Source: Jeotgalibacillus aurantiacus
GTDB taxonomy: Bacteria; Bacillota; Bacilli; Bacillales; Jeotgalibacillaceae
Reading direction: 5' to 3'
Assembly: GCF_020595125.1 (NCBI RefSeq)
Contig: NZ_JACNMS010000001.1
Location: forward strand, 62,001 to 126,000
DNA length: 64,000 nt
Positions 3,661-53,490 of the stretch are shown one piece after another (positions within the stretch are counted from its first letter, which is position 1; the number at the start of each line of letters is the position of its first letter). The notes under the pieces were generated by a model. That model did not search any database, was not told the DNA's origin, and was given only the letters and a program-made list of their open reading frames with translations. The translations under genes and the position numbers were made by a program.

Positions 3661-4278
3661 GCCGCTCCAACAGCTGCACATCCATCTACAGAAATTATCA
3701 CCCTATCAACAGAAACCACCACTACTTTAACAACAATCCAGCGGCTATCAACAAAAATCACTACACTATCAACAATTCGCTTCTGAATCACGAGCCTTAC
3801 AACAGAATCACGCTCTCTTACAACAGAAACTCTGCTTCTAACAACAACTTACTCACCTTTAGTAACACAAAACCAAGCCGCTCCAACAGCAGTACATCCA
3901 TCGACAGAAATTGTCACCCTATCAACAGAAACCACCACTACTTTAACAACAATCCAGCGGCTATCAACAAAAATCACTACACTATCAACAATTCGCTTCT
4001 GAATCACGAGCCTTACAACAGAATCACGCTCTCTTACAACAGAAACTCTGCTTCTAACAACAACTTACTCACCTTTAGTAACACAAAACCAAGCCGCTCC
4101 AACAGCAGTACATCCATCGACAGAAATTGTCACCCTATCAACAGAAACCACCACTACTTTAACAACAATCCAGCGGCTATCAACAGAAATCACTACCCTA
4201 TCAACAATTCGCTTCTGAATCCCGAGCCTTATAACAGAATCACGCTCTCTTACAACAGAAACTATCCTCCTTTCAACA
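3661..4278. repeat. 216-bp tandem repeat array with 21-nt phasing (array 1)
   Basis: Three copies of a 216-bp unit start at 3661, 3877 and 4093; the last is cut short near 4278. Copies 1 and 2 are almost identical. Inside each unit a core like TCAACAGAAA recurs; successive ACA cores are 21, 21, 21, 21, 30, 21, 21, 21, 21 and 18 nt apart. All spacings are multiples of 3. The frame reading AAC AGA stays open through all three units (heptads such as INRNHHY and FNNNPAA) but no ATG, GTG or TTG was found to start it. Another frame gives STEIITL-type heptads and ends in each 30-nt spacer. The array sits downstream of the hpf terminator and upstream of the SEC-C promoter. It has no CRISPR-like repeat/spacer alternation. 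Function unknown; see findings. Confidence 0.9.
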
Positions 4279-4297
4279 TTTCCACCAGAATCAAAAA

Positions 4298-4329
4298 AAC
4301 GCCCCCATTAAGGGACGTTTCTTTTTGTT
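4298..4329 (-). terminator. hpf terminator
   Basis: Minus strand: AAACGTCCC, short loop, GGGGGCGTTTTTTT. The hairpin begins just after the hpf stop and separates hpf from the repeat array. Confidence 0.8.
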
Positions 4330-4340
4330 ATGTTTCAGGC

Positions 4341-4934
4341 TCAGGCTTCTGTTTCGATCAGCCCGTATTTGCCGTCTTTACGTTTGTAGACGATGTTTGT
4401 GCCGTTTGATTCTGCATCAGTGAAGACGTAGAAGCTGTGGCCCAGCATGTTCATTTGAAGGACGGCTTCTTCGCTGTCCATTGGTTTCAGGTTGAATGTT
4501 TTTGTACGCACGATGTCGAATTCGCTGTCGTCTCCGTCATCATCTGCGCCGACTGCTACCGGCTCAAGTTCTTCAATTCCGTTTTCCGCATCTACGCTTG
4601 TTGCGAAGAATTCAGGCTCATTGCCTTTTTCGCGGAATTTACGGTTTACTTTAGTTTTATGTTTGCGGATCTGGCGCTCTAATTTATCTAAGATCAGATC
4701 AATCGCAGCATACATTTCTTCATGACGCTCTTCAGCACGAAGGGTAAGTCGTGGCATTGGAATCGTGACTTCCACTTTCGTTTGTTTATCGTTATACACC
4801 TTTAGGTTAACATGCACGTTGGCATCAGGTGTATCGTTGAAATAGCGCTCTAGCTTGTCGATTTTCTTCTCCACGTATTCGCGGATTGCTGGAGTTACCT
4901 CGATATTTTCTCCTCTGACATTATAATTCAACAT
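4341..4934 (-). CDS. hpf: Ribosome hibernation promoting factor, long form
   Basis: A 197-residue long-form HPF (B. subtilis YvyD). The N-terminal ribosome-binding domain (about 1-100, beginning MLNYNVRGENIEVTPAIREY) binds the 30S decoding region. The C-terminal domain (about 145-195, FNLKPMDSEEAVLQMNMLGH) dimerises and joins two 70S ribosomes into an inactive 100S particle in stationary phase or stress. AAAGGAGG lies 6 nt before the ATG. A sigma-A-like and a sigma-B-like promoter can be read upstream, which fits stress induction of this family. It lies near the fli genes as in B. subtilis, here separated from them by about 4.5 kb holding a reductase, a chemoreceptor, DUF2920 and YjfB. Confidence 0.96.
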   Translation of the reverse strand: MLNYNVRGENIEVTPAIREYVEKKIDKLERYFNDTPDANVHVNLKVYNDKQTKVEVTIPMPRLTLRAEERHEEMYAAIDLILDKLERQIRKHKTKVNRKFREKGNEPEFFATSVDAENGIEELEPVAVGADDDGDDSEFDIVRTKTFNLKPMDSEEAVLQMNMLGHSFYVFTDAESNGTNIVYKRKDGKYGLIETEA

Positions 4935-4981
4935 GTGAACTCCTCCTTTAAATCATAAAAGCTATACTATCTATTTCTCCT

Positions 4982-5007
4982 CTACCCTTGCAATCTCCTG
5001 CTTAACC
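4982..5007 (-). promoter_or_regulatory. Sigma-B-like promoter of hpf
   Basis: Minus strand: GGTTAA (5007-5002), 14-nt spacer, GGGTAG (4987-4982). This is 5/6 and 5/6 against GTTTAA / GGGTAT. It sits 48 nt before the hpf ATG. Confidence 0.45.
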
Positions 5008-5035
5008 GTAAATATTTTATTAATTTTTTGTCGAA

Positions 5036-5065
5036 TTTATAGACATTTATTTGGTTTGATGTCAA
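5036..5065 (-). promoter_or_regulatory. Sigma-A-like promoter of hpf
   Basis: Minus strand: TTGACA (5065-5060), 18-nt spacer, TATAAA (5041-5036). The -35 box is a perfect match. Confidence 0.55.
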
Positions 5066-5094
5066 GTTATTATCTGTCTTTTTGAAACGTTGGC

Positions 5095-5166
5095 TTCCGC
5101 TGCAGATGGCGCTTTCCGCGGCCGGGCGGTGAACCTCTTTGACGCAGGAGTCGCCATCTTCCACTT
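5095..5166. repeat. Bacillaceae-type GC-rich palindromic element, copy 1
   Basis: GC-rich block with the core GGCGCTTTCCGCGG and flanking complementary GGAAG/CTTCC and GGCGACTCC-like arms. It resembles copies at about 35830 and 49340 in this window. It is intergenic between hpf and the reductase gene; any open frame over it is incidental. Confidence 0.6.
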
Positions 5167-5178
5167 CAGCCAACTTCA

Positions 5179-6162
5179 TTAGTAAGCACCCCTGATATGA
5201 TCATGTACTTCGTTATGGTAAAAATCACGTAATTTATTCAGTTCTGCTCCGCTAAATGACGGGGTATGAAGGGCATTTAAGTTTTCTTCGATCTGGGCCT
5301 GGTTTTTAAACCCAGGGATGACGCAGCTGACTTCAGGCTGGTCGAGAATGTAACGCAGGGCAGCGCGTGCCATGTTGCCGCGGCCTTCTTCCATCCATTC
5401 CAGCTTTTTCGTCAGCTCGACACCTTTTTGAAAGCCGAGGCCTGCAAATGTTTCCCCAACGTTAAACTGTTCACCGTTTTCATTGAAACGGCGATGATCG
5501 TCTTCTTCAAACTGATGGTCACTTGTGAATTTGTTGGTCAGCAGCCCGCTCGCAAGCGGCACCCTTGAAATAATGCCGACGCCTTTTTTATGGGCTTCAC
5601 CGAAAAGCTCCTCAAGCGGCTTTTGTCTGAAAACATTAAAGATCACCTGTAGACTTCTAACGTTTGGATGCTGAAGACAGATCAATCCTTCCTCTACTGT
5701 TTCGACACTAACACCGTAATACCGTATTTTCCCTTTACGCGTCAGGTCATCGAGGACGTCAAACACACTGCCATCCTCCAAAATCGCTTTTGGCGGGCAG
5801 TGAATTTGATACAAATCAACGCGTTCCCGCTCCAGCCTTTTTAAGCTTGCATCTAAATATGCCTCAACCTGCGGCATTTCATACGTTTTCGGATCATAAA
5901 TATCACCTGCACGGCAAAATTTCGTCGCGACATGAATATGTTCTTCCTGACCCTTCGTTGCTTTTGCCAGCAGCTCTTCGCTGTGGCCGTCGCCATATAC
6001 ATCAGCCGTATCAAAAAAGTTTACGCCACGATCAATCGCGTAATGCAGGGCCCGCAGTGATTCACGGTCATCTTTTTTACCCCACGCACCACCGATCGCC
6101 CATGTTCCGAAGCTGACTTCACTCACTCTGAAATCGGTATTTCCCAGCTGCCGGTATTTCAT
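5179..6162 (-). CDS. Aldo/keto reductase
   Basis: A 327-residue NADPH-dependent oxidoreductase of the aldo/keto reductase superfamily (TIM barrel). The catalytic tetrad is visible: Asp and Tyr in FFDTADVYGDGHSEE, Lys in IHVATKFCR and His in YQIHCPPK. C-terminal VIPGFKNQAQIEENL is the cofactor phosphate loop. I use the ATG at 6162 because AAGGAG is 10 nt before it; the GTG at 6171 is only 1 nt from the same site. The substrate cannot be told from sequence. Neighbours (hpf, chemoreceptor) do not suggest a pathway. Confidence 0.9.
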   Translation of the reverse strand: MKYRQLGNTDFRVSEVSFGTWAIGGAWGKKDDRESLRALHYAIDRGVNFFDTADVYGDGHSEELLAKATKGQEEHIHVATKFCRAGDIYDPKTYEMPQVEAYLDASLKRLERERVDLYQIHCPPKAILEDGSVFDVLDDLTRKGKIRYYGVSVETVEEGLICLQHPNVRSLQVIFNVFRQKPLEELFGEAHKKGVGIISRVPLASGLLTNKFTSDHQFEEDDHRRFNENGEQFNVGETFAGLGFQKGVELTKKLEWMEEGRGNMARAALRYILDQPEVSCVIPGFKNQAQIEENLNALHTPSFSGAELNKLRDFYHNEVHDHIRGAY

Positions 6163-6272
6163 CGATGTCACTCTCCTTCAAACACGACTTCTCCATCTAA
6201 TTGTACAACGGATCACCAAAGAAGAACAAACATTTACAAAATTCAGTTTTATTAATTGTTTCCATAAATGAA

Positions 6273-6306
6273 AAACGGACACACCATTAAATTGACGTGT
6301 CCGTTC
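6273..6306 (-). terminator. Terminator of the chemoreceptor gene
   Basis: AACGGACAC pairs with GTGTCCGTT across a 14-nt loop; the minus strand continues TTTTCATT. Confidence 0.75.
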
Positions 6307-6349
6307 CTCATTTCTTAACTGTTCAAATAACATCTAAACAGAGTAGAAA

Positions 6350-8035
6350 TTAATTCAATTTAAACTTCCCAACCTCATCCGACAGCCCTTCAGCAAGCTT
6401 CGCGAGTTCATCTGCACTTGCAGAGATCGTTTCCATTGTGCTGAGAGACTGCTGACTGGAGGCAGCTGTTTCTTCAATTCCGGCAGCCGCTTCTTCTGAA
6501 ACGGAGGCAATCTCCTGGATAGAGGCATTCATCATTTGGCTGTCTTCGTTTATAGAAGTGAGGCTCACCGACACATCAGCAATCTTACCGATCATTCCTT
6601 CAATAGCACGGTGAATTTCATGAAACTTTTCACCCGTTCCGGAGATTTTTTGTGTTCCCTCATTGACTTCTTTGTAGCCCTTTTCCAAAGATTCCACAAC
6701 CAATCCAGATTCATGCTGAATCCCACCAACAAATCCTGTAATTTCACTTACTGATTTGGATACCTGTTCAGCCAGCTTTCGAACCTCATCTGCCACAACA
6801 GCAAATCCTTTACCATTCTCTCCGGCACGTGCCGCCTCTATCGCCGCATTAAGTGCCAGCAGGTTTGTCTGCTCTGCCACATCACGAATCACATTCACAA
6901 GCCTCGAAATTTCATTGGTCTGCTGATCCAGGCCCTTAACCTTATCAACCGTCTCAGCCATCACCTGATCAATAATCATCATCTGATGAACCGAAGCCTC
7001 CATCATCTCTGAACCTTCTTCAGCACTTTTAATGACATATTCAGAACGCTTGGTAATATCTTGATTCTGCTGACTCATTTTCTGCACCTTCACTGCAAAA
7101 CCATCCATCTTTTCAGACAGATCACCTGAATGATTTGCCTGCGCCTCAGACCCTGAAGCCAATTCCTGCATCGTCACGGCAATCTGTTCACTGCCTTCAC
7201 GCACCTCATTAGCTGACTGTGTCAGTTCCTCACTCTGCATCGCCACATGAGTGGTCGCCGCATTGATTTTCTGTAACACTTCAGCCAGCTGATGCTGCAT
7301 CTTATTTTCAGCTCGAATCAGACTGCCGATCTCATCCCTGCGTTTCGTCACCAGCGGTTCACCGGTCAAATCACCTTCCGCAATCTGTTCCATTCTTAAG
7401 GAAGCCAGTTTTACCGCCCGGCCAATCCGCTGCCCCATAAATGTACCCAGACCAATAGCCAAAATAAGTGCAGCGATACCCATTCCAATCACAAGATTAC
7501 GATTCGCCACATAAATCTCACCATTTGTCGCATCCAGCTCTGCAGCTTTCTCCTCATTCCGGATCTTCAGCTGGAGGAGATTTCCCTGGGCCACTGCAAA
7601 GAGCGTGCCGGAACTCTGAAGTCCCTTCTCAGCCTCTTCGAATTTGCGCTCTTCAATCAACGCAATATCACTCTTTACAGCATCCGTAAACTTTGCCCAC
7701 GAAGCCTCAAAATTAGCGACCATGTCCACTTCACTACCGTGCACACCCGCTGCCTTATAAGCAGCCACTAACTCCTCAATCCGTCCCATATTATTCTCTG
7801 CAGATTGCGTCAGTTCAGGATTCTCATAAAGAGCCGCACTCACCATCTGCACCCGCGTATTCTCAGCAAGACGCGTAATATCCATTAAAATCGCATTGGG
7901 CAGAACCCGCTGCTCATACATTTCATTACCATTCTGATCCACCAGCTGCAACGCATATATACTCACAGCCCCCAACATTAACATAACTAGCGCCATCACA
8001 CTAAATGCCGCCACAAGTCTCGTCCTGATGTCCAT
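6350..8035 (-). CDS. Methyl-accepting chemotaxis protein
   Basis: A 561-residue transmembrane chemoreceptor. It has a TM segment at about 8-30, an extracellular four-helix-bundle sensor (about 35-180) with no recognised ligand, a second TM at 181-201, a HAMP domain at about 200-253, and a long cytoplasmic coiled coil. The conserved hairpin tip that binds CheA/CheW is at about 386-424 ([20 protein letters not shown]). Gln/Glu pairs in the coiled coil are likely methylation sites. GGAGG precedes the ATG. A sigma-D-like promoter upstream puts it in the motility regulon. It is followed by a terminator, so it is probably transcribed alone. Confidence 0.95.
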
Positions 8036-8072
8036 CTTCCATCCTCCAGTAATTTCAATCTGTCCTTAAGTA

Positions 8073-8099
8073 TTATCGGAAGATGTTTGATGTTTTGTA
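8073..8099 (-). promoter_or_regulatory. Sigma-D-like promoter of the chemoreceptor gene
   Basis: Minus strand: TACA (8099-8096), 15-nt spacer, TCCGATAA (8080-8073). Compare TAAA-N15-GCCGATAT: 3/4 and 6/8. Confidence 0.5.
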
Positions 8100-8213
8100 G
8101 TTCCAATTAACCAAATCACAAAAAATACACATTTTCTTTCATGAAAATGAAATTCCTCCTGATTATTTATAATGAAAAGTTTTTTATATAGAATAATCAA
8201 ATGAATGAAAAAC

Positions 8214-9287
8214 CTATTGGTCATGATTAAATTTATATTTAGGTAAACCATCTGTTTTCAAGTATATCAATGAACTGTTCCTGTACTTTTTTTGATGATC
8301 TAATGCAGGTATAACAGGCGGAGTAGCATCAGATATATGCATTGCTTTTTCAAATAATAGAATGAAATCTGCATCCAGACCATGTCCATTCGAGAAGAAT
8401 ATCTTGTTATCTATCTCACCTTTACCTATTTGAAAATATGTCGTGTGATCAATTGAGGCTAACCATTCCTGCTTTTTAAGATGATTAACCAGTGGATCTG
8501 AGTCTCCCTGAAAAGCGATAATCTTACAATTATTGATATGATTTAAGTACATTTTTGATAAATCATGGATTTCTTTATACCTAAAAAAATCTTGTGCCAG
8601 ATATTTATATTTTATATGTATAACTGCTTGACCAAGTTGTTTATAAAGATCTCGCTCTGCTGTCAGATACCCTGGAACTAACCAAGAAGAGTTATCTACT
8701 AGTAATGAGAGTAAATCCGGTTCAATTGTATTAACTAAATGGAGTAAATACGCACCATGAGAATGTCCGTATCCAATCACTTTAGATTTGTCATAGGTAA
8801 CCTTGTTATCCTCGAGAATTAACTTCACTGCTTCTATAGCGGTGATAATATCTATCGCCTGCATATAACCCATATCATTAAAATCACTTAGAGATTCATC
8901 TAATTTTGCATTTGTTCTTATTTTTATTGATTTCGTTGCAACCAATTCAAATAATTTTACCTGTCCGGTGTTAATTTGAACCAGTTCATCTTCAGTAAGA
9001 AAATCAAGTTTAATACCTTCGATCTCATGCGAGTTTTGCATGAAAGAACTTCCAAAATACTCAACTTGGAGGACGACGAGGTTATATGTGTCCGCGAATA
9101 AGTCCCTCATTTTTTTATAGACATTTGAATCTATATGAGCTCCAAATCCCGGCACTAAAATCATTATTCCTGTATTTTTATTTACAACATCAGGCGTTGA
9201 AAACTCAATTTTCAACTGTCTTTCTGATGGCCTTTCTTCATAAATACTCGGATGGCCTGCGATACTAAAATTGTAATTTTTCGTCAT
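8214..9287 (-). CDS. DUF2920 alpha/beta-hydrolase-like protein
   Basis: A 357-residue protein that I place in the DUF2920 family. It shows an alpha/beta-hydrolase layout: GIMILVPGFGAHID (oxyanion region, about 40-53), nucleophile elbow GYGHSHG with Ser176, an acidic loop GDSDP (about 261-265), and a late NGHGLD with His302. A Ser-Asp-His triad is therefore plausible. No signal peptide is seen, so it is cytoplasmic. As I recall, DUF2920 genes also occur near flagellin-glycosylation genes in epsilonproteobacteria. Here it follows the fli cluster, so an esterase or acyltransferase acting on the nonulosonate or on glycosylated flagellin is a reasonable inference, unproven. The gene looks more AT-rich than its neighbours, which hints at transfer. 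Confidence 0.7.
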   Translation of the reverse strand: MTKNYNFSIAGHPSIYEERPSERQLKIEFSTPDVVNKNTGIMILVPGFGAHIDSNVYKKMRDLFADTYNLVVLQVEYFGSSFMQNSHEIEGIKLDFLTEDELVQINTGQVKLFELVATKSIKIRTNAKLDESLSDFNDMGYMQAIDIITAIEAVKLILEDNKVTYDKSKVIGYGHSHGAYLLHLVNTIEPDLLSLLVDNSSWLVPGYLTAERDLYKQLGQAVIHIKYKYLAQDFFRYKEIHDLSKMYLNHINNCKIIAFQGDSDPLVNHLKKQEWLASIDHTTYFQIGKGEIDNKIFFSNGHGLDADFILLFEKAMHISDATPPVIPALDHQKKYRNSSLIYLKTDGLPKYKFNHDQ

Positions 9288-9358
9288 AACAGACTCCTAT
9301 ATAATTTTTTTCTCTTGTAAATCCTCTACATTCATATTTTCAATCTAAATAATAACTA

Positions 9359-9390
9359 AAGTCCCCCTGCAACTTTATACAGAGGGACTT
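9359..9390 (-). terminator. Terminator after yjfB (end of fli cluster)
   Basis: AAGTCCCcctg pairs with cagaGGGACTT across about 10 nt; the T-run is seen on the minus strand (GGGGGACTTTAG). Confidence 0.7.
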
Positions 9391-9394
9391 TTCA

Positions 9395-9577
9395 TCAGCC
9401 CTTTAAATCAATGCGATTTCCCAGGTCCGGATGAGGTACTTTTATTGAATTTAACATTTCAGCAAGTGCGGCCCCCTGCTGCTCTGAATGATCCATGGCT
9501 TTTTTTACAAGTTCAATACTGGCACCCTGTTTAAGTTGAGAATGGTTTAAAACCACTGACATTGCTGCAATATCCAT
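9395..9577 (-). CDS. yjfB: YjfB family putative motility protein
   Basis: A 60-residue protein matching the small YjfB family: MDIAAMSVVLNHSQLKQGAS at the start and a C-terminal HPDLGNRIDLKG. Family members are encoded with flagellar genes or under sigma-D in bacilli and are called putative motility proteins; no mechanism is known. AAGGAG is 8 nt before the ATG. It is the last gene of the flaG-fliD-fliS-fliT-yjfB run, 18 nt after fliT, and is followed by a terminator. Confidence 0.8.
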   Translation of the reverse strand: MDIAAMSVVLNHSQLKQGASIELVKKAMDHSEQQGAALAEMLNSIKVPHPDLGNRIDLKG

Positions 9578-9595
9578 ATACTCACTCCTTATGTC

Positions 9596-9943
9596 TTAAT
9601 TACGTTTATCGTAAAACATGCCGTCTTTAGATTCCATTTCTCCATAAGGATTTGTATATTTATTTGAGGACTTTTTCTTTTCAGCAGTTAATAATATTTT
9701 TTTCCGGACATCATTTTTTATATCTGTAAGTTTTTTCTCAATAACCTGATTCCATTTAATAATTTCGTCAGCTAACTCTCTCTCATAATCAGTTTCAGGT
9801 GCGCAAACATTTGGCAACAATTTTTCCCGTTCATCCAACAAATGATTAATCTGTGTGATCAACTTATCCCGGTCAACGGCCTCGTCAGACTGGAGTAGGA
9901 TAAATAATCGATTTGTAATTTGATGGCACTCCTGAATGACCAT
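9596..9943 (-). CDS. fliT: Flagellar export chaperone FliT
   Basis: A 115-residue, largely helical, charged protein directly after fliS. Its ATG abuts the fliS TAA, so the two are coupled. FliT proteins bind the C-terminus of the cap protein FliD and keep it export-competent. The sequence is poorly conserved, as usual for FliT; the call rests on size, helical content (ITQINHLLDEREKLLPNV), and the fliD-fliS-fliT order found in Bacillus. Confidence 0.75.
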   Translation of the reverse strand: MVIQECHQITNRLFILLQSDEAVDRDKLITQINHLLDEREKLLPNVCAPETDYERELADEIIKWNQVIEKKLTDIKNDVRKKILLTAEKKKSSNKYTNPYGEMESKDGMFYDKRN

Positions 9944-10348
9944 TTATACTATTCCACCTGCACCAACCTGCTGAAGTTTTCTATTCTCTTGAATAACCTG
10001 CTTCCAAACATCCCTGAATTCAGTTACGAAACTGGATACTTCGTTTAATATATCTACACTGCTTTGTATATTTGCTTCAATCAACCGGCTAATCAGGAAT
10101 TCATACAAAGAAAGCATGTTTTTAGCAATTTCATGCTCTTGTTTCAATGTAATCATTAATTCTCTTAAAATCGCCTGTGCTTTTTGAATGTTGATATTTT
10201 TTTGTTCTGCATTTCCTTTTTCAATAGCAATCTCTGCCTGTTTTATAAACTTTAAACATCCATTGTATAGCATTAATGTAAGCTCACCGGGGGAAGCTGT
10301 ATTTACAGAGTTATTTGCATATGCCTGTTGAGGATTTTTCAACATCAT
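9944..10348 (-). CDS. fliS: Flagellin export chaperone FliS
   Basis: A 134-residue FliS. The N-terminal YANNSVNTASPGELTLMLYNG is the family signature; the rest is a four-helix bundle. FliS wraps the C-terminus of flagellin in the cytosol, prevents early polymerisation and hands it to FlhA; in bacilli it also bears on FliW availability. It follows fliD and overlaps no neighbour. A second, diverged FliS lies at 29677-30129 beside the second flagellin gene. Confidence 0.95.
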   Translation of the reverse strand: MMLKNPQQAYANNSVNTASPGELTLMLYNGCLKFIKQAEIAIEKGNAEQKNINIQKAQAILRELMITLKQEHEIAKNMLSLYEFLISRLIEANIQSSVDILNEVSSFVTEFRDVWKQVIQENRKLQQVGAGGIV

Positions 10349-10365
10349 TTCACTTCCTTATCTGT

Positions 10366-12426: not shown

Positions 12427-12439
12427 TACTCTTCACTCC

Positions 12440-12787: not shown

Positions 12788-12817
12788 ATTTCCATCCCCT
12801 TGAGTTTTATATTATTG

Positions 12818-12843
12818 ATATCGGCATTTCAACAAAATTTTTA
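12818..12843 (-). promoter_or_regulatory. Sigma-D promoter of flaG-fliD-fliS-fliT
   Basis: Minus strand: TAAA (12843-12840), 14-nt spacer, GCCGATAT (12825-12818). The -10 box is a perfect match to the flagellar sigma-D consensus. Confidence 0.85.
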
Positions 12844-12863
12844 ACCTTTTATCTAAATAACAA

Positions 12864-17409: not shown

Positions 17410-17413
17410 TTTT

Positions 17414-44999: not shown

Positions 45000-45039
45000 A
45001 ATTGTCACCTGCCTGTATCAATTTAAGTAGCGTCTGCGA

Positions 45040-46416: not shown

Positions 46417-46434
46417 CCCCTATCCCTCCTGAAT

Positions 46435-47388
46435 CTAGTAGTGGGGCAAGGCAGAATATTGATCGTTCTGCCGGTCCGTATCCTTTTCTTTATCCATCGG
46501 CTGATCAAAGGAAATAATTAAGGTTGTTCCCTGACCCCCGGTATAAAGTCGTAACTTCGAAGCAATTTTCATCATAACGTTAAAACCCTGACCAAGAGAT
46601 TCCCTGGTGGAAAACCCATTCAGAAGCGTCGCTTTCGGAAGACTTTGAAGGTCAATACCCGGCCCTTCATCTTCAACAATAAAATGAAGTGACTGATGGT
46701 GATCTTCAACAATCTTTACGTGCCCGCACTTTGCGTGCTTAAACACATTTGTCAGAGATTCTGACAGCACGAGAAGGCAGCTCATCATGAAGGATTTTGA
46801 ATAACCTTTTTCCTCAAAACACTGCCGTGCCATGTTTCTGATATCCGCAATATCCGACCTTTTGCGGATCATATATTCGAGCAGTAATTCCCCGTTTTTA
46901 AAAAACTCAATTTCTTCTTTTAAAATAAGAAGCAGCTTCTCCTGAGTAGCTGCATAAATAACGTCACGATATATTTCCCATGATTCGGGAACATTTGTCG
47001 TACTTACCCCCGGTTTTCCTGAAGGGAATAATTCCTGCTTCGTATCAAAATAAACATCAAGCATGGCTTTTTTTAGATCGTCAGCCACTTTTAACCCGCA
47101 AATTCTTTCCGGCAGATCAACCTCTGCGCTTTCCCATTCAATCATTTGAGCTGCTGCTGAAATAAGTGGATCCTCTGCGTATTTGAGCTCCTCCTGTGTA
47201 CAGGCAAGTACCTGATAAAACAGCTCATCCTGCCGCTGTTTTGTATACCCCATTTTTTCTCCGCATTTCATTGCGATAAATCCGGTCTTTATCCTGTAAA
47301 GAAGATGATCAACAGACTGTTCGGATGGCGAGAAGGAAAAAATATTTTTCCTTAACTTCCGAATAACATTAATGGACTGCCAATTCAT
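46435..47388 (-). CDS. HATPase (anti-sigma/switch-kinase type) with unknown N-terminal domain
   Basis: A 317-residue soluble protein. The C-terminal GHKL ATPase (about 195-295) has an N box with E210 and N214 (LSESLTNVFKHAKCG), a G1 box DEGPGID (240-246) and a G2 box TRESLGQGFNVM (261-272). There is no His-kinase dimerisation His, so it fits the RsbW/RsbT/SpoIIAB class that phosphorylates STAS proteins. The N-terminal 150 residues are helical and unrecognised; a faint likeness to a degenerate HD-type helical domain is not reliable. It heads the operon and is divergent from treP. GGGAG precedes the ATG. Confidence 0.85.
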   Translation of the reverse strand: MNWQSINVIRKLRKNIFSFSPSEQSVDHLLYRIKTGFIAMKCGEKMGYTKQRQDELFYQVLACTQEELKYAEDPLISAAAQMIEWESAEVDLPERICGLKVADDLKKAMLDVYFDTKQELFPSGKPGVSTTNVPESWEIYRDVIYAATQEKLLLILKEEIEFFKNGELLLEYMIRKRSDIADIRNMARQCFEEKGYSKSFMMSCLLVLSESLTNVFKHAKCGHVKIVEDHHQSLHFIVEDEGPGIDLQSLPKATLLNGFSTRESLGQGFNVMMKIASKLRLYTGGQGTTLIISFDQPMDKEKDTDRQNDQYSALPHY

Positions 47389-47690
47389 TTTGATTCACTC
47401 CCGAAGTTCAGAATTCCATTGGCAAAAAGCAACATGAACCCACCCGAATCCTGTCTTACTGGATGACCTTTTGATGAAAGCCTGTATGTTTCTTAAAAAA
47501 ACGTTCACAATATACACAGATCCTGTGATACATGAATATTCCTTCCTGTAATATGTAACAAAAGAACTATTTAATATTACTATTTTAATTCTTTGGCATC
47601 ACGAAAGCAAATATAAGCAAAAAATGATTTCAATAATTATCCAAACTTTTAGCCTTCCGAAACATTATCCTGAGATCTTTATAAGCCGAA
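47389..47690. other. Intergenic region between the switch-kinase operon and treP
   Basis: About 300 nt without a gene. It must hold the minus-strand promoter of the signalling operon; TTGCTT-N17-TAAAAT is a weak sigma-A-like candidate on that strand. No sigma-D box was found. No riboswitch was recognised. Confidence 0.4.
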
Positions 47691-47693
47691 TGA

Positions 47694-47723
47694 TTGACAA
47701 CTTGTATATACACGTAATAGGAT
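47694..47723 (+). promoter_or_regulatory. treP promoter with TreR-type operator
   Basis: TTGACA (47694-47699) is followed by TTGTATATACAC (47702-47713), near the TTGTATATACAA palindrome I associate with TreR, and by a -10 candidate (TAATAG at 47715 or TAGGAT at 47718). TreR bound between the boxes would block transcription until trehalose 6-phosphate appears. Confidence 0.6.
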
Positions 47724-47735
47724 GAAGGAGCGAAA

Positions 47736-47749
47736 TGAAAGCGCTGTTT
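47736..47749 (+). promoter_or_regulatory. Imperfect cre site
   Basis: TGAAAGCGCTGTTT fits the left half of the CcpA cre consensus and part of the right half. It lies just downstream of the promoter. Confidence 0.4.
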
Positions 47750-47806
47750 CCCGGAGTAATTTCTTTTAGACGGGGAATATAGGATACAGGGAATTCGTCC
47801 TGAATT

Positions 47807-47820
47807 TGAAAACGTTTACG
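47807..47820 (+). promoter_or_regulatory. cre site for CcpA overlapping the treP leader
   Basis: TGAAAACGTTTACG matches TGWAARCGYTWNCW at 13 of 14 positions. It directly adjoins the treP ribosome site, so CcpA would act as a roadblock in glucose. Confidence 0.7.
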
Positions 47821-47832
47821 GGAGGTTAAATG

Positions 47833-49269
47833 ATGAGCGATATTAATCGTGAACAGGTGCGCCAGATTGTTGAAGCAATCGGCGGACAGGAAAACATTGA
47901 TACAGCTACACACTGCGTCACCAGATTACGCTTTGTTCTCCATGATGAAAGCAAAGTTGATAAGAAAAAACTTGAGTCCATTGACCTTGTAAAAGGATCT
48001 TTCTCAAACAGTGGGCAGTTCCAGGTCGTCATTGGACAGGGTCTAGTTGATAAAGTTTATAAAGTATTGGCTGAAGAAACAGGCATTCAGGAAGTCTCCA
48101 AGGATGATGTAAAAAATGCAGCCGCAAAGAAAATGAACCCGCTGCAGCGTCTCGTGAAACTGCTTGCTGATATTTTTATTCCGATTCTTCCTGCTATCGT
48201 AACGGCCGGTTTATTACTCGGATTAAACAACGTCTTAACCGCAGAGAATCTTTTCGGTCCGGATCCATTAATAGTGACTTATCCGCAATGGGCCGATATC
48301 GCAGAAGTCATCAACGTCATAGCCAGCGCGGCCTTTACCTTCCTGCCTGCATTAATAGGATGGTCAGCCGTTAAACGCTTTGGCGGAAATCCATTAATGG
48401 GGATTGTACTCGGCCTTGTCCTTGTACACCCTGCACTCTTAAGTGCTTACGATTACCCGTCAGCACTTGAAGAAGGCAACGTGCCAACATGGAATTTATT
48501 CGGATTAACTGTTGAATCTATCGGTTATCAGGGACAGGTTCTGCCTGTTTTAGTAGCAGCTTACTTCTATGCTTTAATTGAGAAATTCCTGGACAAAAGA
48601 GTTCCAGATTCCATCAAATTGCTCGTAGTAGCACCTGTATCAATTCTGATTACCGGTTTTGCCGCATTCATCGTCATTGGACCATTAACATTTGCAGCTG
48701 GTACAGCCGTAACTGGAGCCGTTATCTGGATGTTTGAAAACCTTGGATGGCTTGGCGGATTCATTTATGGTGGATTCTATGCAGTCCTTGTTATCACAGG
48801 TATGCACCATACATTCCTTCCGGTTGATCTTCAGCTGATTTCAGACCAGGGAGGAACATTCCTGTGGCCGATCCTCGCACTGTCAAATATCGCACAGGGT
48901 TCTGCAGCATTTGCCATTTTCGCTGCTACCTTCTTAATGAAGCGCAAAGACGAAAAGCTTCGCGGACTGGCCAGCTCATCCGGTATCTCAGCATGGCTCG
49001 GTGTTACAGAGCCCGCGCTGTTCGGGGTAAACTTACGATACAAGTTCCCATTCATTTGCGCACTGATCGGCTCCGCTATTGCCGGTACACTGCTTGGTGC
49101 TAACTTTGTTCTTGCTAACTCAATCGGTGTCGGTGGGGTCCCTGGAATCATCTCTATTCAGGCAGAATTCTGGGCGATCTTCGGAATCGGAATGGCAATC
49201 GTTATTGTCGTCCCATTCGTTCTGACACTGCTATACACTATGTTAATTAAAAAAGGTGAAATCGAGTAA
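47833..49269 (+). CDS. treP: PTS trehalose transporter IIBC
   Basis: A 478-residue sugar permease. An EIIB domain (about 1-85) carries the phospho-Cys in THCVTRLRFVLHD; an EIIC domain (about 110-475) has about ten TM segments, with GMHHTFLPVDLQL and SSGISAWLGVTEPALFGVNL typical of the glucose/sucrose superfamily. It imports trehalose as trehalose 6-phosphate; no IIA domain is present, so IIA-Glc is supplied by another protein. Of the two tandem ATGs (47830, 47833) the second lies 7 nt from GGAGG and is preferred. It is followed by treA. Confidence 0.92.
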   Translation: MSDINREQVRQIVEAIGGQENIDTATHCVTRLRFVLHDESKVDKKKLESIDLVKGSFSNSGQFQVVIGQGLVDKVYKVLAEETGIQEVSKDDVKNAAAKKMNPLQRLVKLLADIFIPILPAIVTAGLLLGLNNVLTAENLFGPDPLIVTYPQWADIAEVINVIASAAFTFLPALIGWSAVKRFGGNPLMGIVLGLVLVHPALLSAYDYPSALEEGNVPTWNLFGLTVESIGYQGQVLPVLVAAYFYALIEKFLDKRVPDSIKLLVVAPVSILITGFAAFIVIGPLTFAAGTAVTGAVIWMFENLGWLGGFIYGGFYAVLVITGMHHTFLPVDLQLISDQGGTFLWPILALSNIAQGSAAFAIFAATFLMKRKDEKLRGLASSSGISAWLGVTEPALFGVNLRYKFPFICALIGSAIAGTLLGANFVLANSIGVGGVPGIISIQAEFWAIFGIGMAIVIVVPFVLTLLYTMLIKKGEIE

Positions 49270-49272
49270 AAA

Positions 49273-49314
49273 AGTCCATAAGCGTTCGCATCTGATGCGG
49301 GCGCTTTATTTTTA
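49273..49314 (+). terminator. treP terminator or attenuator
   Basis: AAGCG-TTCGCATC and GATGCGGG-CGCTT pair with little loop, followed by TATTTTT. treA lies 170 nt further on, so partial read-through is likely. Confidence 0.65.
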
Positions 49315-49339
49315 GGAGATCTGTTAATAAGCCATTAAA

Positions 49340-49455
49340 AGTGACGGGAAATGGTGAGACTCCTTCGGCAGAGAAGCGACAAGTGAGACAGCGTAATTCG
49401 AAGCATTAGCTGCTCACCGCGCGGCCGCGGAAAGCGAACCTTTTCCCGGCACGAT
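49340..49455. repeat. Bacillaceae-type GC-rich palindromic element, copy 3
   Basis: Arms GACGGGAAA and TTTTCCCGGC, GGTGAGACTCC, and the core GCGGCCGCGGAAAGCGAACC. It belongs with the copies at 5095 and 35830. It lies between treP and treA. Confidence 0.65.
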
Positions 49456-49485
49456 TTAAAAAAACCAACTAAGGAGTGACCCAAC

Positions 49486-51171
49486 ATGACACAACCATGG
49501 TGGAAAAAAGCAGTCGTTTATCAAATCTACCCGAAAAGCTTTAATGACACGACCGGTAACGGCGTCGGTGACCTGAACGGCATCACAGAAAAGCTTGATT
49601 ACTTAAAAGAACTCGGAGTCGATGTTTTGTGGCTGACTCCTCCATACAAATCCCCGCAGCGTGATAATGGGTATGACATCAGCGACTACTTCTCGATCCA
49701 TGATGAATACGGATCCATGGAAGATTTCGATCGTATGCTTTCGGAGGCACACAGCCGGGGCATTAAAATCATCATGGATATTGTTGTGAACCATACGTCA
49801 ACCGAGCACGAATGGTTCGTGGAATCACGCAAATCAAAAGACAGCGAGTACCGTGATTTTTATATTTGGAAAGACGGCAAACCTGATGGCAGTGAGCCGA
49901 CTAATTGGATCTCTAAATTCGGAGGAAACGCGTGGCAATATGATGAAGCATCCGGCCAATATTACCTTCACCTGTTTGATGTCACGCAGGCAGATCTCAA
50001 TTGGGAGAACGAGCGCGTACGCCGTGAAATCTACGACATGATGAACTTCTGGGCAGAAAAAGGCGTGGACGGTTTCAGACTGGATGTCATCAACCTTATT
50101 TCAAAAAATCAGGACTTTCCTGATGAAACAGGTGATGGTGACGGCAGACGCTTCTACACAGATGGTCCGAAAGTTCATGAATACATGCATGAAATGAACC
50201 GTGAAGTGTTTTCAAAGCATGATCTTTTAACAGTTGGTGAAATGTCCTCAACCTCTATTGATCACTGTATCAAATATTCAAATCCTGACCGTCAGGAGCT
50301 CAGCATGACATTTAACTTTCATCATTTAAAAGTGGATTACCCGAATGGTGAAAAGTGGACGGTTGCAGATGCAGATTTTCTTCAGCTAAAGGATATTCTC
50401 TCAACCTGGCAGACAGGAATGAATGAAGGTGGCGGATGGAACGCATTATTCTGGTGCAACCACGACCAGCCACGCGTTGTCTCGCGTTACGGAAATGACG
50501 GAGAGTATCACAACGAATCAGCCAAAATGCTTGCAACCGTGATCCATATGATGCAGGGTACACCATATATTTATCAGGGTGAAGAATTTGGTATGACAAA
50601 CCCTAAATTTACAACGATTAATGAGTATCGTGATGTCGAGTCTCTTAATATCTATAACATTTTAAAAGAAGAAGGCAAAAACGAGTCTGAGATCCTTGAA
50701 ATTCTGAAACACAAATCACGTGACAACTCCCGTACACCTGTTCAATGGAACGCTTCTGATAATGCAGGTTTCACAGATGGAACACCGTGGATTCCTGTTG
50801 CTAAGAACTATACAGAGATTAACGCGGAAGCTGCAGTGAACGATCCGAATTCCGTATATTATCACTATCAGAAATTGATCCGTCTTAGAAAAGAGATTGA
50901 TATTCTAACGAACGGTAACTATGAATTATTACTGGCTGATGATCCTTCTATCTTCGCTTATACACGTAACACAGAAAACGAAGCACTTTTAGTGATCAAT
51001 AACTTCTATGCTCATTCTGTCGATTTTACACTACCTGAAGAAGTGGCTGAACGCTTTAGTGCCTTTGGTAAACCCGACGTATTGATTCATAACTATGATG
51101 ACGTTAAAGGTGACGCCAATCACTACCCGCTTCGTGCTTATGAGTCGATTGTTTTTCATTTTAAGAAATAA
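49486..51171 (+). CDS. treA: Alpha,alpha-phosphotrehalase
   Basis: A 561-residue GH13 enzyme that splits trehalose 6-phosphate into glucose and glucose 6-phosphate. Catalytic residues are visible: nucleophile Asp200 (GVDGFRLD), acid/base Glu252 (TVGEMSS) and transition-state Asp327 (CNHDQPR). The N-terminus WWKKAVVYQIYPKSFNDTTG is typical of the TreA/oligo-1,6-glucosidase group; neighbouring treP and treR support phosphotrehalase over glucosidase. AAGGAGTG precedes the ATG. It ends at a strong terminator. Confidence 0.93.
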   Translation: MTQPWWKKAVVYQIYPKSFNDTTGNGVGDLNGITEKLDYLKELGVDVLWLTPPYKSPQRDNGYDISDYFSIHDEYGSMEDFDRMLSEAHSRGIKIIMDIVVNHTSTEHEWFVESRKSKDSEYRDFYIWKDGKPDGSEPTNWISKFGGNAWQYDEASGQYYLHLFDVTQADLNWENERVRREIYDMMNFWAEKGVDGFRLDVINLISKNQDFPDETGDGDGRRFYTDGPKVHEYMHEMNREVFSKHDLLTVGEMSSTSIDHCIKYSNPDRQELSMTFNFHHLKVDYPNGEKWTVADADFLQLKDILSTWQTGMNEGGGWNALFWCNHDQPRVVSRYGNDGEYHNESAKMLATVIHMMQGTPYIYQGEEFGMTNPKFTTINEYRDVESLNIYNILKEEGKNESEILEILKHKSRDNSRTPVQWNASDNAGFTDGTPWIPVAKNYTEINAEAAVNDPNSVYYHYQKLIRLRKEIDILTNGNYELLLADDPSIFAYTRNTENEALLVINNFYAHSVDFTLPEEVAERFSAFGKPDVLIHNYDDVKGDANHYPLRAYESIVFHFKK

Positions 51172-51185
51172 TTTTACAATGTAAA

Positions 51186-51225
51186 AAGCAGTGCAACTCA
51201 AGAATGAGTTGCACTGCTTTTATTG
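51186..51225. terminator. Bidirectional terminator between treA and the lipoprotein gene
   Basis: AAGCAGTGCAACTCA and TGAGTTGCACTGCTT form a perfect 15-bp stem with loop AGAA; T-runs on both strands serve treA (+) and the lipoprotein gene (-). Confidence 0.9.
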
Positions 51226-51300
51226 TTGGTCACTATTTCAGACCAAATAAATTCCCGCAAAACAAGTCATCATTTCCCAGGAAATATGTCAAAAACCCGC

Positions 51301-51888
51301 TCATTCCGGAGAGGCAATAAATTGAATCGACGCGATTTTCCAGCCTTCGTCTGTTTCGCGCAAAATCGTCACCTGACGTCCGCCTCGCGTAACTTCAGTC
51401 CCTGATGCAGGATCGATCGTTGTCAGCTCAAGATTTGAAAACATTTCAGCTACGCCCTCTTCATAGCCGCTGATCGTTTTTTCCACCACGGTACGGTTCA
51501 CATCAAACTGCTCAAACACATCTCCGACAGCAGTCCGTTCTTCCTCTTCGTTATAATAATCGTCACCATATAACAGTAGATCAAGATATCCTTCCAGATC
51601 CTCATTGTTAAAAGTTTCTATATATTGATCAAATACAGCATTAACTTCTTCCTCAACTTCGGCTGGTACATCTTCTGCTTCCTGAACATTCCCTTCAGAA
51701 TCGAGCGTAATGCCTGTTTCAGACTCGATGTTCCCTGCAGCTGAATGCGTTTCCTGACCGGCACCCTGTCCTGCCTGTCCATCTGTCACGGAATTCGCAT
51801 TTTGTTCTTCACGATCTTCACTGCACCCTGCCAGAGCCAATACAAGCAGACCGGCACCCAGCAGTGTTTTCCATGATGTTTTCATCAA
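51301..51888 (-). CDS. Putative lipoprotein with NTF2-like domain
   Basis: A 195-residue secreted lipoprotein. The signal peptide ends in the lipobox LALAGC with Cys22. An acidic linker (about 25-80) follows, then a SnoaL/NTF2-like domain (VFDQYIETFNNEDLEGYLDL to WKIASIQFIASPE). The start is TTG at 51888 (AAAGGA 9 nt before) or the adjacent ATG at 51885. Function unknown; it lies on the opposite strand inside the tre locus and looks like an insertion between treA and treR. Confidence 0.78.
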   Translation of the reverse strand: MMKTSWKTLLGAGLLVLALAGCSEDREEQNANSVTDGQAGQGAGQETHSAAGNIESETGITLDSEGNVQEAEDVPAEVEEEVNAVFDQYIETFNNEDLEGYLDLLLYGDDYYNEEEERTAVGDVFEQFDVNRTVVEKTISGYEEGVAEMFSNLELTTIDPASGTEVTRGGRQVTILRETDEGWKIASIQFIASPE

Positions 51889-51987
51889 TCTAAACCGTCC
51901 TTTCTGCTATGAAAATTAAAGGTAATTTCCTTACATTTACCTAATAAAGCCCACTATCATATGATACAATAAATAAGGGTGATATAA

Positions 51988-52707
51988 ATGGCAACAACAA
52001 ATAAATATATGAACATTTTTCAAGAACTCTCAAACGAAATAGAAAACGGTGTATTTAAACCTAACTCACTTCTTCCATCAGAACATGAACTATGTGAGCG
52101 TTTTGATACTTCCCGCGAGACGATAAGGAAAGCGCTTACACTTTTATCTCAAAACGGATTCATACAAAAAATGCAGGGTAAAGGCTCTCTCGTTCTCGAT
52201 ATAAGTAAAATGACATTCCCGGTTACCGGCCTTGTCAGCTTTAAAGAAATCCAGGAGTCATTAGGGCGCGATATCCAGACAACTGTCCATCATCTTGCAC
52301 TGAACGAAACATCAGAATGGCTTTCACAGCAGCTTGAGTCTCCAAGTCAGTCACTTGTATGGGAAGTCACACGAACGCGAACCGTTCAGGGAGAACGCGT
52401 GATTCTCGATAAAGACTGGATCCTGCAATCCCACGTCCCTTCTTTAACAGAAGAAATCTGCGCAGATTCTATCTACTCCTATCTTGAGGGTAAATTAGGG
52501 CTAAGCATCTCTTACGCAAAAAAAGAAATCACAGTAGAACCGGCTACAGACGAAGATCGGGCACTGCTTGATTTGAACGGCTACAGTCATATCGTGCTCG
52601 TAAGAAACTTCGTACACCTGGAGGACACAACCATCTTCCAATACACAGAATCACGGCACCGTCTGGATAAATTCAAATTCGTTGATTTTGCAAGGCGTAG
52701 GAAATAA
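51988..52707 (+). CDS. treR: GntR-family trehalose operon repressor
   Basis: A 239-residue GntR/HutC regulator. A winged HTH at about 8-70 (NSLLPSEHELCERFDTSRET) precedes a UTRA ligand domain at about 95-235. By family and position it is TreR, which binds the treP operator and is released by trehalose 6-phosphate. AAGGGTGAT precedes the ATG. It is transcribed separately from trePA, not in one operon as in B. subtilis. Confidence 0.9.
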   Translation: MATTNKYMNIFQELSNEIENGVFKPNSLLPSEHELCERFDTSRETIRKALTLLSQNGFIQKMQGKGSLVLDISKMTFPVTGLVSFKEIQESLGRDIQTTVHHLALNETSEWLSQQLESPSQSLVWEVTRTRTVQGERVILDKDWILQSHVPSLTEEICADSIYSYLEGKLGLSISYAKKEITVEPATDEDRALLDLNGYSHIVLVRNFVHLEDTTIFQYTESRHRLDKFKFVDFARRRK

Positions 52708-52738
52708 TTTAACGGCAATTATAAATCTAATTTACTTC

Positions 52739-52768
52739 TAAAAAACCGCTGAGATGGCGGTTTTTTGT
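52739..52768 (+). terminator. treR terminator
   Basis: AAAAACCGC, 7-nt loop, GCGGTTTTTT. It separates treR from array 2. Confidence 0.85.
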
Positions 52769-52794
52769 TATTTGAATGACCATTTGGTTGACAC

Positions 52795-53490
52795 GCGAGC
52801 ACACAAGAGTCCTTACGACAAAACGGACCAGCATTACGACATATTTACTGCAGCTATCAACAGAAAACGGCTCGCGATTGACAGAAACATACGCCGTTAC
52901 AACGATTTGGCCTTTACTGGAATCAGGATCGACATAAACAGTGGGGCTAGTGACAGAAAAAAGTGTGCGATCGACATAAATAATAGCGATTACGACAACT
53001 CTTTTCTTCTACGAAAATTGACCCCCTCTTTTGTTCCGCGAGCACACCAAGGCCCTTACGACAAAACGGACCAGCATTACGACATACTCACTGCCCCCTT
53101 CAACAGAAAACGGCTCGCGATGAACAGAAACACAAGCCGTTACAACGATTCTACCTTTACTGGAATCAGGATCGACATAAACAGTGGGGCTAGTGACAGA
53201 AAAAAGGGTGCGATCGACATAAATAGCAGCGATTACGACAACTCTTTTCTTCTACGGAAATAGACCCGCTCATTTGTCCCGCGAGCACACAAAGGCCCTT
53301 ACGACAAACCGGACCAGCCTTACGACATATTTAATCCCGCTATCAACAGAAAACGGCTCGCGATAAACAAAAACACACCCCGTTACAACGATTCCACCCT
53401 TACTGGAATCAGGATCGACATAAACAGTGGGGCTAGTGACAGAAAAAAGCGCGCAATCGACATAAATCGCACCGATTACACAACCCTCCA
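52795..53490. repeat. 243-bp tandem repeat array with 21-nt phasing (array 2)
   Basis: Three units start at 52795, 53038 and 53281 (period 243). Units 1 and 2 are nearly identical and unit 3 is more diverged. ACA cores (CGACATAA, TGACAGAAA, CAACAGAAA) are spaced 21, 21, 21, 21, 30, 21, 21, 21 nt, then 66 nt to the next unit; one core is ACG. The plus frame through GAC AGA is open across two units (heptads YDKTDQH, INRKRLA, IDRNIRR) and, after one TAG, across the third. The only ATG in frame (52754) lies in the treR terminator loop and has no ribosome site. The array lies between the treR and degU terminators. It shares its phasing with the array at 3661-4278. Function unknown. Confidence 0.9.

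Follow-up and report, generated by a model that had tools for sequence, protein, structure and literature searches.

The window analysed here comprises 64,000 nt of Jeotgalibacillus aurantiacus (assembly GCF_020595125.1, contig NZ_JACNMS010000001.1, positions 62,001-126,000, forward strand). It contains two tandem arrays, one between a gene with a SEC-C motif and an S30AE ribosome-hibernation gene, and the other between a GntR/UTRA regulator gene and a response-regulator gene that is presumably DegU-like (Table 1). The periods given in the initial annotation were recovered by TRF, which places array 1 at 3659-4263 (2.8 copies of period 216, 97% match) and array 2 at 52794-53484 (2.8 copies of period 243, 90% match). 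Each array is a tandem triplication of one element of ~177 bp, and every unit of both begins with the core spacings 21, 21, 21, 21, 30, 21 and 21, so the common spacing reported for them holds. The open frames described earlier are also present: 201 codons in array 1 and, in array 2, an ORF of 169 aa (52754-53263) that is closed by a stop at 53261-53263 and reopens in unit 3. The motif GAATCA, in contrast, had been proposed as common to the two 30-nt steps but lies at different offsets in them and occurs in only 3 of the 44 elements of the family described below, and we regard it as a coincidence.

Table 1. Array units, terminator-like hairpins and flanking genes in the window (window coordinates).
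Feature	Position	Strand	Remark
Gene with SEC-C motif	2543..3574	-	flanks array 1
Array 1 unit 1, family A element, 8 cores	3682..3858	+	30-nt step 3766-3795
Array 1 unit 2	3898..4074	+	30-nt step 3982-4011
Array 1 unit 3	4114..4290	+	30-nt step 4198-4227
Terminator-like hairpin between S30AE (hpf-type) gene and array 1	4302..4314	-	consensus scan only
S30AE ribosome-hibernation gene (hpf/raiA-type)	4341..4934	-	flanks array 1
GntR/UTRA regulator gene	51988..52707	+	flanks array 2
Terminator-like hairpin 3' of GntR/UTRA gene, ahead of array 2	52739..52767	+	consensus scan only
Array 2 unit 1, family A element	52812..52988	+	30-nt step 52896-52925
Array 2 unit 2	53055..53231	+	30-nt step 53139-53168
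Array 2 unit 3	53298..53474	+	30-nt step 53382-53411
Terminator-like hairpin 3' of response-regulator gene, beyond array 2	53514..53537	-	consensus scan only
Response-regulator gene with GerE/LuxR domain	53542..54216	-	flanks array 2

We refer to this element as family A. Its core, CTATCRACAGAAAT, is present in 8 or 9 direct copies per element at steps of 21,21,21,21,30,21,21(,21) nt, and we characterised 44 such arrays at 40 intergenic places in the J. aurantiacus genome. The 30-nt step is found in all 44, as a rule after core 5, and the run of four 21-nt steps, one of 30 and two more of 21 in 41 of them. An exact three-core consensus pattern gave no match and a seven-core version gave 5 matches against 5 in its control. 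The eight-core pattern with the 30-nt step gave 45+25 matches in the whole genome versus 5+8 in the reversed control at up to 3 mismatches, and 20+17 versus 2+0 at up to 1 mismatch. With arrays 1 and 2 masked, a score of 55 was reached at 45 places when the step was 30 nt long versus 4-13 for ten alternative lengths in the range 18-36. Rows with the long step in the third, fourth or sixth interval performed about equally well (44-45) because 21-nt steps run on at either side, so that this comparison fixes the length of the irregular step and not its position. The genome-wide scan for core spacing had been set beforehand as the test of the proposal that the arrays represent a dispersed family of homologous elements. 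The spacing proved common to dozens of further loci, far above the reversed control, and the 44 arrays at 40 places, together with orthologous copies in a sister species, bear that proposal out. Across 41 loci, the information lies chiefly in the cores and drops to background level beyond cores 1-9, the flanks included, with no conserved ends.

Might these elements be coding repeats, degenerate or active, that specify heptads with one decapeptide? The long frame in array 1 would fit such an origin, as would the finding that 24 of the 44 elements are free of stops in the shared frame, more than in column shuffles (15.4 +- 3.0). However, the other 20 contain stop codons in that frame, and the RAC codon ends in C in 345 of 352 cores, though genes in this genome favour GAT and AAT. 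Among 15 ortholog pairs from J. aurantiacus and the sister species, codon positions 1, 2 and 3 are substituted equally (112/119/120) and the synonymous share of substitutions is 18.5%, versus the 20.1% to be expected in the absence of coding constraint. Between tandem copies nearly all differences are nonsynonymous (2-20 per pair, with 0-2 synonymous), 22-nt steps break the frame in a second family (B), and the translated arrays gave no Pfam match above cut-off. Codon-neutral change combined with a spacing common to dozens of loci means that the architecture stands and the coding idea falls, and we give next to no credence to coding repeats, including a tandem-repeat protein gene under amino-acid constraint. 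Of the two options offered at the outset, old coding repeats that lost their start or DNA/RNA kept open in one frame by a 21-nt rule, only the latter fits. Family A consists of dispersed non-coding intergenic elements built as ordered strings of direct cores 21 bp apart, and automated annotation is likely to make spurious heptad-repeat proteins of such arrays.

The 40 family A places comprise 21 convergent, 18 tandem and no divergent (promoter) gaps, plus one untyped, compared with 21 convergent, 79 tandem and 38 divergent among 138 gaps of at least 150 bp that lack an element. Terminator-like hairpins were detected on 41 of 60 gene-end sides (3.7 +- 1.8 in shuffles). Family A is thus located preferentially between convergent genes and mostly beyond terminator-like hairpins. 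Families B, C and E have no clear preference for convergent gaps, and there is no evident preference of strand relative to replication, 18 of the 44 family A arrays being on the leading strand as judged by local GC skew.

A location always near gene ends is also what might be expected if the arrays acted as RNA, with the spaced cores of a transcribed array capturing a protein or small RNA, or with the array serving in termination between convergent genes. Minus strands of family A elements fold slightly better than shuffles (z -0.87 +- 0.20), and a promoter-like match on the minus strand is repeated in each unit of array 1. Plus strands, however, carry no fold signal (z -0.07 +- 0.17), the hairpins on those 41 sides precede the arrays, array 2 is enclosed by two of them, and convergent sites hold both orientations. 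Nor was there any Rfam match at gathering score in the window, or at E<=1 for 3600-4340, that would indicate a known structured RNA. We consider an RNA-level element unlikely.

Further families with unrelated cores obey the same 21-nt rule in the J. aurantiacus genome. Family B has nine cores and the 30-nt step in 9 of 10 arrays and family C has that step in 5 of 5, such that the layout of four 21-nt steps followed by one of 30 is common to A, B and C. In all, this one genome holds about a hundred arrays with base-exact spacing and words that differ by family. A congener and Bacillus sp. FJAT-27251 have arrays of their own, and 33 other Bacillales samples gave no clear excess. Among 12 congeners searched at up to 1 mismatch, family A was found only in J. 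aurantiacus and its sister species, and the genus can therefore do without it. A six-core pattern matched 75 stretches in the named genome collection, of which five, with scores of 94-118, are from Jeotgalibacillus sp. R-1-5s-1; the next best, at 67, is a plain tandem repeat, followed at 64 by Bacillus sp. FJAT-27251 with its own core. TACGACAAAM twice at 21 nt was found in 0 of 397 genomes of the order. In congeners, arrays that include a 22-nt step are readily recognised at the S30AE locus, but an anchor-based search for such arrays yielded little (5 matches in 2 of 61 genomes). With respect to a phage or plasmid origin, blastn returned no match of array 1 to plasmids or of array 2 to phages, and for an array of family D from the congener G007 only two 33-base plasmid matches, neither relevant. 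Patterns for families A, B and D matched 6, 0, 16 and 16 stretches of viral contigs; the stretches that obtained any score ranked lower than the family arrays and resemble plain tandem or low-complexity repeats.

The arrays are not evenly distributed over the chromosome. The contig C2, which makes up 27% of the genome, was assigned to the terminus on the basis of GC skew in four samples of 13 kb. It holds 1 of 38 A arrays and none of the 21 B or 41 D arrays (P about 1e-4, 1.5e-3 and 3e-6, respectively, values that are too small because loci are partly clustered, with four within about 6 kb in G007). On the complete chromosome of G007, 1.30 Mb opposite dnaA is empty of the 32 D-type loci, which number 15, 13, 4 and 0 by quarters of distance from dnaA. 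Thus, in a comparison of two genomes that uses merged pattern matches, families A, B and D and one congener family are nearly absent from the terminus region. This effect could reflect the stability of an old backbone rather than function.

Such stability also figures in the strongest rival explanation, in which a neutral or selfish repeat would have spread in the manner of BOX or REP, by an unspecified route, into harmless intergenic gaps. The terminus depletion would then be only apparent, a consequence of the greater age, stability and copy number of the origin side. The preference for convergent gaps beyond terminators, the patchy presence among congeners and the many families per genome are all consistent with this, as is tandem multiplication in J. 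aurantiacus where the sister species has single units (three places compared). But the sampled 52 kb of C2 is not short of convergent gaps (5, versus 6 in 135 kb of contig C1), one geometry is common to families with unrelated cores, and the flanks are at background level, with no conserved ends. Selection on the cores is a further difficulty. Several family A core positions evolve more slowly than spacers between the two sister species: in the 15 ortholog pairs, core offsets T1, A2, T3, A6, C7, A8 and A11 (T1, A2, T3 and A11 being outside the detection pattern) change at 0.00-0.08 versus 0.18 in spacers, while C0, C4, R5, G9, A10, A12 and T13, at 0.13-0.19, are little or no slower. Finally, second-best matches between J. 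aurantiacus and sister elements have a mean identity of 0.57 and at most 0.67, and there is therefore no sign of recent copying between loci. We regard a neutral or selfish repeat as possible but rather unlikely.

In build, the arrays resemble plasmid iterons and ParR/TubR-type centromeres, which likewise are direct repeats of a short core with about two-turn phasing. Those systems lie beside the rep or par gene of a replicon, whereas the arrays occupy dozens of chromosomal loci, arrays 1 and 2 next to the SEC-C, S30AE, GntR and response-regulator genes, and have a fixed 30-bp step. The resemblance of the direct 12-14-nt cores to iterons suggests another alternative, namely that the arrays titrate a replication initiator of host or plasmid, or act in incompatibility, their placement near the origin raising array dosage at initiation. 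The origin-side gradient and the several core families would suit such a role, but the 44 elements contain no DnaA box and the plasmid, phage and viral-contig comparisons gave no relevant match, and we think titration improbable. The Noc palindrome (NBS), ATTTCCCGGGAAAT, at up to 2 mismatches, a ram-like motif and parS were likewise absent from the 44 elements. A Spo0A-like word, TTCGACA, is found in 7 of the 352 cores, which exceeds the background rate because the word resembles the core. CRISPR arrays have near-identical repeats of 23-47 nt and unique spacers of similar size; here the core is about 14 nt, the period is 21 and the cores vary.

RacA (ram) sites are DNA landmarks that are linked to the origin in Bacillus and serve in anchoring or septum placement. 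RefZ (RBM) sites are described in the same terms in PMC6657595, and the arrays are similarly linked to the origin, but ram and RBM (five RBMs) are short near-palindromic motifs rather than phased direct cores. The same paper (PMC6657595) describes Noc-binding sites in Bacillus subtilis and SlmA-binding sites in Escherichia coli as dispersed with a gap at the terminus, a distribution that the arrays share; these sites are single near-palindromic motifs, in contrast to the 5-9 direct cores seen here. BOX, RUP and REP/BIME (compare PMC3049150) are also dispersed, intergenic and near gene ends but are hairpin or inverted-repeat modules alike over their full length, whereas the arrays have mainly cores and spacing in common, with no plus-strand fold signal, little on the minus strand, and no defined ends. 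No description of such arrays was found in the literature searched, a scope largely outside subscription journals, and this large class of non-coding DNA elements is apparently undescribed.

Our best reading, to which we give roughly even chances, is that the arrays are helically phased DNA sites for a putative cooperative DNA-binding protein and mark the origin-side chromosome. The reading is favoured by the tuning of the score to period 21 and step 30 and by the layout that unrelated cores have in common, and a DNA-level role by the absence of codon-phase constraint, the fixed third codon position and the lack of a plus-strand fold or Rfam match. The arrays are probably landing strips for this putative protein and, by analogy, might be used like Noc or SlmA sites while being built like iterons. 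The protein, or paralogues of differing specificity, would bind cooperatively along a single face of the duplex, with one subunit at each core and 21 bp corresponding to two turns of DNA. The resulting nucleoprotein complex would have a set size, and the 30-bp step would be a special point within it. (That step equals 2.86 turns of 10.5 bp, which is not a whole number and counts against this reading.) Since they would be absent near the terminus, such complexes would probably label the origin side of the chromosome and serve in placing the division site, anchoring the origin or segregation, as Noc, SlmA, RacA and RefZ sites do. More tentatively, and with the odds against it, the arrays might form a class of chromosomal landmarks in which many families with unrelated cores use one architecture, direct cores at a pitch of 21 bp plus a fixed irregular step. 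The word that is recognised would then be exchanged in concert across an array while the geometry is kept and the terminus domain avoided, so that the bacterial chromosome would carry an address system that resembles a centromere and evolves fast.

Bacterial intergenic DNA is known to contain few large ordered structures. If the arrays are selfish, they would be a new kind of repeat with a geometry in need of explanation; if a protein reads them, they would represent a new chromosome-organising system whose specificity changes fast between close species.

Every unit of arrays 1 and 2, the two tandem arrays in the window, carries a short core in a single orientation, spaced 21, 21, 21, 21, 30, 21, 21 nt and onward, as the initial annotation had claimed for both. 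Because the orthologous places in the sister species G004 carry one unit each (spans of ~372 and ~211 bp vs 642 and 696 bp here), arrays 1 and 2 probably arose recently by tandem multiplication of a single ~177-bp element (family A). Other family A elements are also tandemly multiplied (see table); at the L022 locus, the third place compared, G004 again has a single unit.

The dispersed family that the initial annotation had expected emerged from whole-genome scans. In the 3.5-Mb genome, an eight-core RACA pattern with family A spacing had 70 matches vs 13 for the backward pattern at up to 3 mismatches, and 37 vs 2 at up to 1 mismatch; a two-core pattern had 13 matches vs 0 in the control. Chaining yielded 44 family A arrays at 40 places, with the 30-nt step present in all 44 and the run 4x21, 30, 2x21 in 41. 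Sampled stretches were taken around pattern matches (587 kb including the window), and densities within this sample are therefore biased. When scored for fixed geometry with arrays 1 and 2 masked, 45 places reached at least 55 with a 30-nt step, vs only 4-13 with steps of 18, 21, 24, 27, 28, 29, 31, 32, 33 or 36 nt. The top score of the 30-nt layout in reversed sequence was 41.5, and periods of 19, 20, 22 and 23 gave 0-1 places even with the threshold lowered to 25. Moving the 30-nt step to the third, fourth or sixth interval also returned 44-45 places; this score fixes the position of the step poorly because further 21-nt steps continue the arrays to either side of it. The layout was settled by a 41-locus logo: eight cores (CTATCRACAGAAAT), five before the step and three after it, with a weak ninth. 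In this logo cores differ by position (e.g. AATT ends core 5), spacers hold little information and sequence outside the element is at background level.

Between orthologs in this genome and G004, substitution was 0.18 in spacers, 0.00-0.08 at the slow core offsets T1, A2, T3, A6, C7, A8 and A11, and 0.13-0.19 at the remaining core offsets. The values for A6, C7 and A8 are biased by the use of these offsets in the pattern that recovered most G004 copies; T1, A2, T3 and A11 lie outside it. Since second-best matches (mean identity 0.57, maximum 0.67) fall far below ortholog identity (0.77-0.97), either the elements would have dispersed well before G004 split off, or nothing beyond cores and spacing would matter.

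The initial annotation had also offered old coding repeats as an option. In the reading frame set by core phase, 35 stops fall across the 44 elements and 24 elements are stop-free, vs 15.4 ± 3.0 in column shuffles, an excess that is the sole result favouring coding. Of the 352 cores, 345 carry C at the third base of the RAC codon (although the detection profile is itself weighted towards C), and genes here use GAT 5930 times vs 2600 for GAC and AAT 3541 times vs 2568 for AAC. Among 15 ortholog pairs, the first, second and third codon positions had 112, 119 and 120 changes and the synonymous share was 18.5% vs 20.1% expected. Differences among tandem copies within arrays 1 and 2 are nearly all nonsynonymous, and in Pfam no match to the translated arrays passed the curated cut-off. 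We rejected coding repeats on the fixed C in RAC, the equal change across codon positions, the near-expected synonymous share, the mostly nonsynonymous differences among tandem copies and the lack of a Pfam match. Nor is family A an evident RNA: plus-strand folding was at shuffle level (z = −0.07 ± 0.17, mononucleotide shuffles), minus-strand folding was slightly better than such shuffles (z = −0.87 ± 0.20) and Rfam gave no match. On the minus strand of array 1, a promoter-like match (9/12 positions) recurs in each unit.

A scan blind to core sequence, which stacked five 14-mers at periods of 15-30, peaked at period 21 in this genome, with 8 places in 123 kb (arrays 1 and 2 counted) vs 0-1 at other periods. 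When 400 kb each of G007, a congener, and Bacillus sp. FJAT-27251 were scanned, period 21 gave 21 places (0-4 at other periods) and 26 places (vs 0-6), respectively; 4/21 and 10/26 of these lie inside called ORFs, some perhaps spurious. The 33 other Bacillales samples (657 kb) had no clear excess (6 places at period 21, 5 at period 18). Further families, told apart by core word, follow the 21-nt rule in this genome. Family B (TTATTCCTTCATT) has nine cores in 9/10 arrays, eight of which run 4x21, 30 and then three steps totalling 64; family C (TTGTATCGTT) has the 30-nt step in 5/5 arrays; family D (GGTTCGCAAGATTT), with ~41 arrays, has exactly six cores in 7/10; family E (TTATTTGACCACT) has five to seven cores, some arrays being tandem; and family F is a further such family. 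Reversed controls for B-F gave 0-1 per family, and whole-genome patterns matched 21 times for B and 68 times for D, both with 0 in controls.

Locations of 21-nt arrays and related repeats (L-numbers are sampled sequence stretches)
Feature	Location	Description
Array 1	3659-4263 (window)	tandem repeat, 216-bp unit
Array 2	52794-53484 (window)	tandem repeat, 243-bp unit
Other tandemly multiplied family A elements	L022 6749-7459; L080 5961-6788; L035 5727-6454	
Family B arrays	L040 12235-12432; L029 4548-4745; L077 4288-4485; L080 1204-1401, 9978-10175, 12038-12235; L081 454-651	4x21+30 layout, core unrelated to A
Family D arrays	L034 6138-6262; L074 5468-5592; L026 11417-11541; L027 1812-1936	mostly six cores
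Family F/D-like arrays, GAACCTCACGAACT	L026 1929-2264; L028 12371-12922	blocks of ~195 bp repeated
S30AE-locus arrays of congeners	L208, L209, L210, L211, L212	single 22-nt step
FJAT-27251 arrays	L188 1496-1714; L190 1433 onward; L260-L279	many 21-nt arrays with own cores
Sphingobacterium athyrii repeat	L127 7339-7780	plain tandem repeat, 21 copies of a 21-nt unit resembling TTTACAACAAACCCGACACAG

With up to 1 mismatch allowed, family A occurred among 12 congeners only in this genome and in G004, the latter with 15 matches (control 2), and was absent from 49 other members of the order bar one plain-repeat-like match. Jeotgalibacillus sp. R-1-5s-1, probably the same organism as G004, has family A at 5 loci. 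Searches of plasmids (with array 1 and a G007 D-type array), phages (with array 2) and viral contigs (with family A, B and D patterns) found no family member. The Sphingobacterium athyrii repeat is probably an ordinary tandem repeat, because its spacers are conserved too. At the array 1 locus (S30AE), the congeners G006-G009 and G011 carry different arrays with steps 21, 21, 21, 22, 21, 21 and a core that varies by species, and some have in common TGCATGAAG as leader and ATACACCCGG at the centre; the best score was 36.4 vs at most 17.9 in phase-keeping shuffles of these loci. These arrays, a handful, give the strongest hint that the word may change while the geometry stays. The G007 D-type core (TTCTNNGAAC, 32 loci) is related to that of family D, and FJAT-27251 arrays with core CTTACGACAAA also have the 30-nt step at two loci. 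Cores seen in FJAT-27251 include YTTACGACAAA with a 30-nt step, ATATCAGGATTAAA, TTGATGCAAT and CCGGACAATAGAA.

With genes called as plain ORFs, the 40 family A places comprise 21 convergent, 18 tandem, 0 divergent and 1 untyped, vs 21 convergent, 79 tandem and 38 divergent among 138 gaps ≥150 bp that lack the element. Families B, C and E have no clear leaning to convergent gaps. A terminator-like hairpin separates gene end from element on 41/60 sides (3.7 ± 1.8 in shuffles), and such hairpins flank array 2 on both sides.

Contig C2 (934 kb, 26.6% of the genome) changes GC skew from +0.11 at 265 kb to −0.12 at 641 kb, as would be expected at the terminus. It holds 1/38 family A, 0/21 family B and 0/41 family D arrays (binomial P = 1e-4, 1.5e-3 and 3e-6), where family A loci within ~1 kb were merged by hand and three family D pairs are close neighbours. 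Samples from C2 had no lack of convergent gaps (52 kb held 5, vs 6 in 135 kb of contig C1). The complete G007 chromosome starts with dnaA and dnaN, and its 32 hand-merged D-type loci number 15, 13, 4 and 0 by quarter of distance from the dnaA end. On the far side, 1.30 Mb lacks D-type loci (P = 1e-5 in a simulation that treats the 32 loci as independent, which is too low because several of them cluster).

Direct cores two helical turns apart on one face, in fixed number and polarity and with one longer step, are the geometry that a cooperative protein filament or wrap would require, for which we infer binding factor, occupancy and phenotype alike; each family would be read by a protein of different specificity. 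The Noc palindrome is absent from the arrays and we know of no array-linked replicon, which argue against membership in Noc-type sites and iterons, respectively. According to passages of one source, DNA sites for SlmA and Noc are scarce at the terminus and the positions of RefZ sites are linked to the origin (PMC6657595). We would therefore set the arrays next to nucleoid-occlusion and origin-landmark sites in function, and next to iterons in structure, as members of neither.
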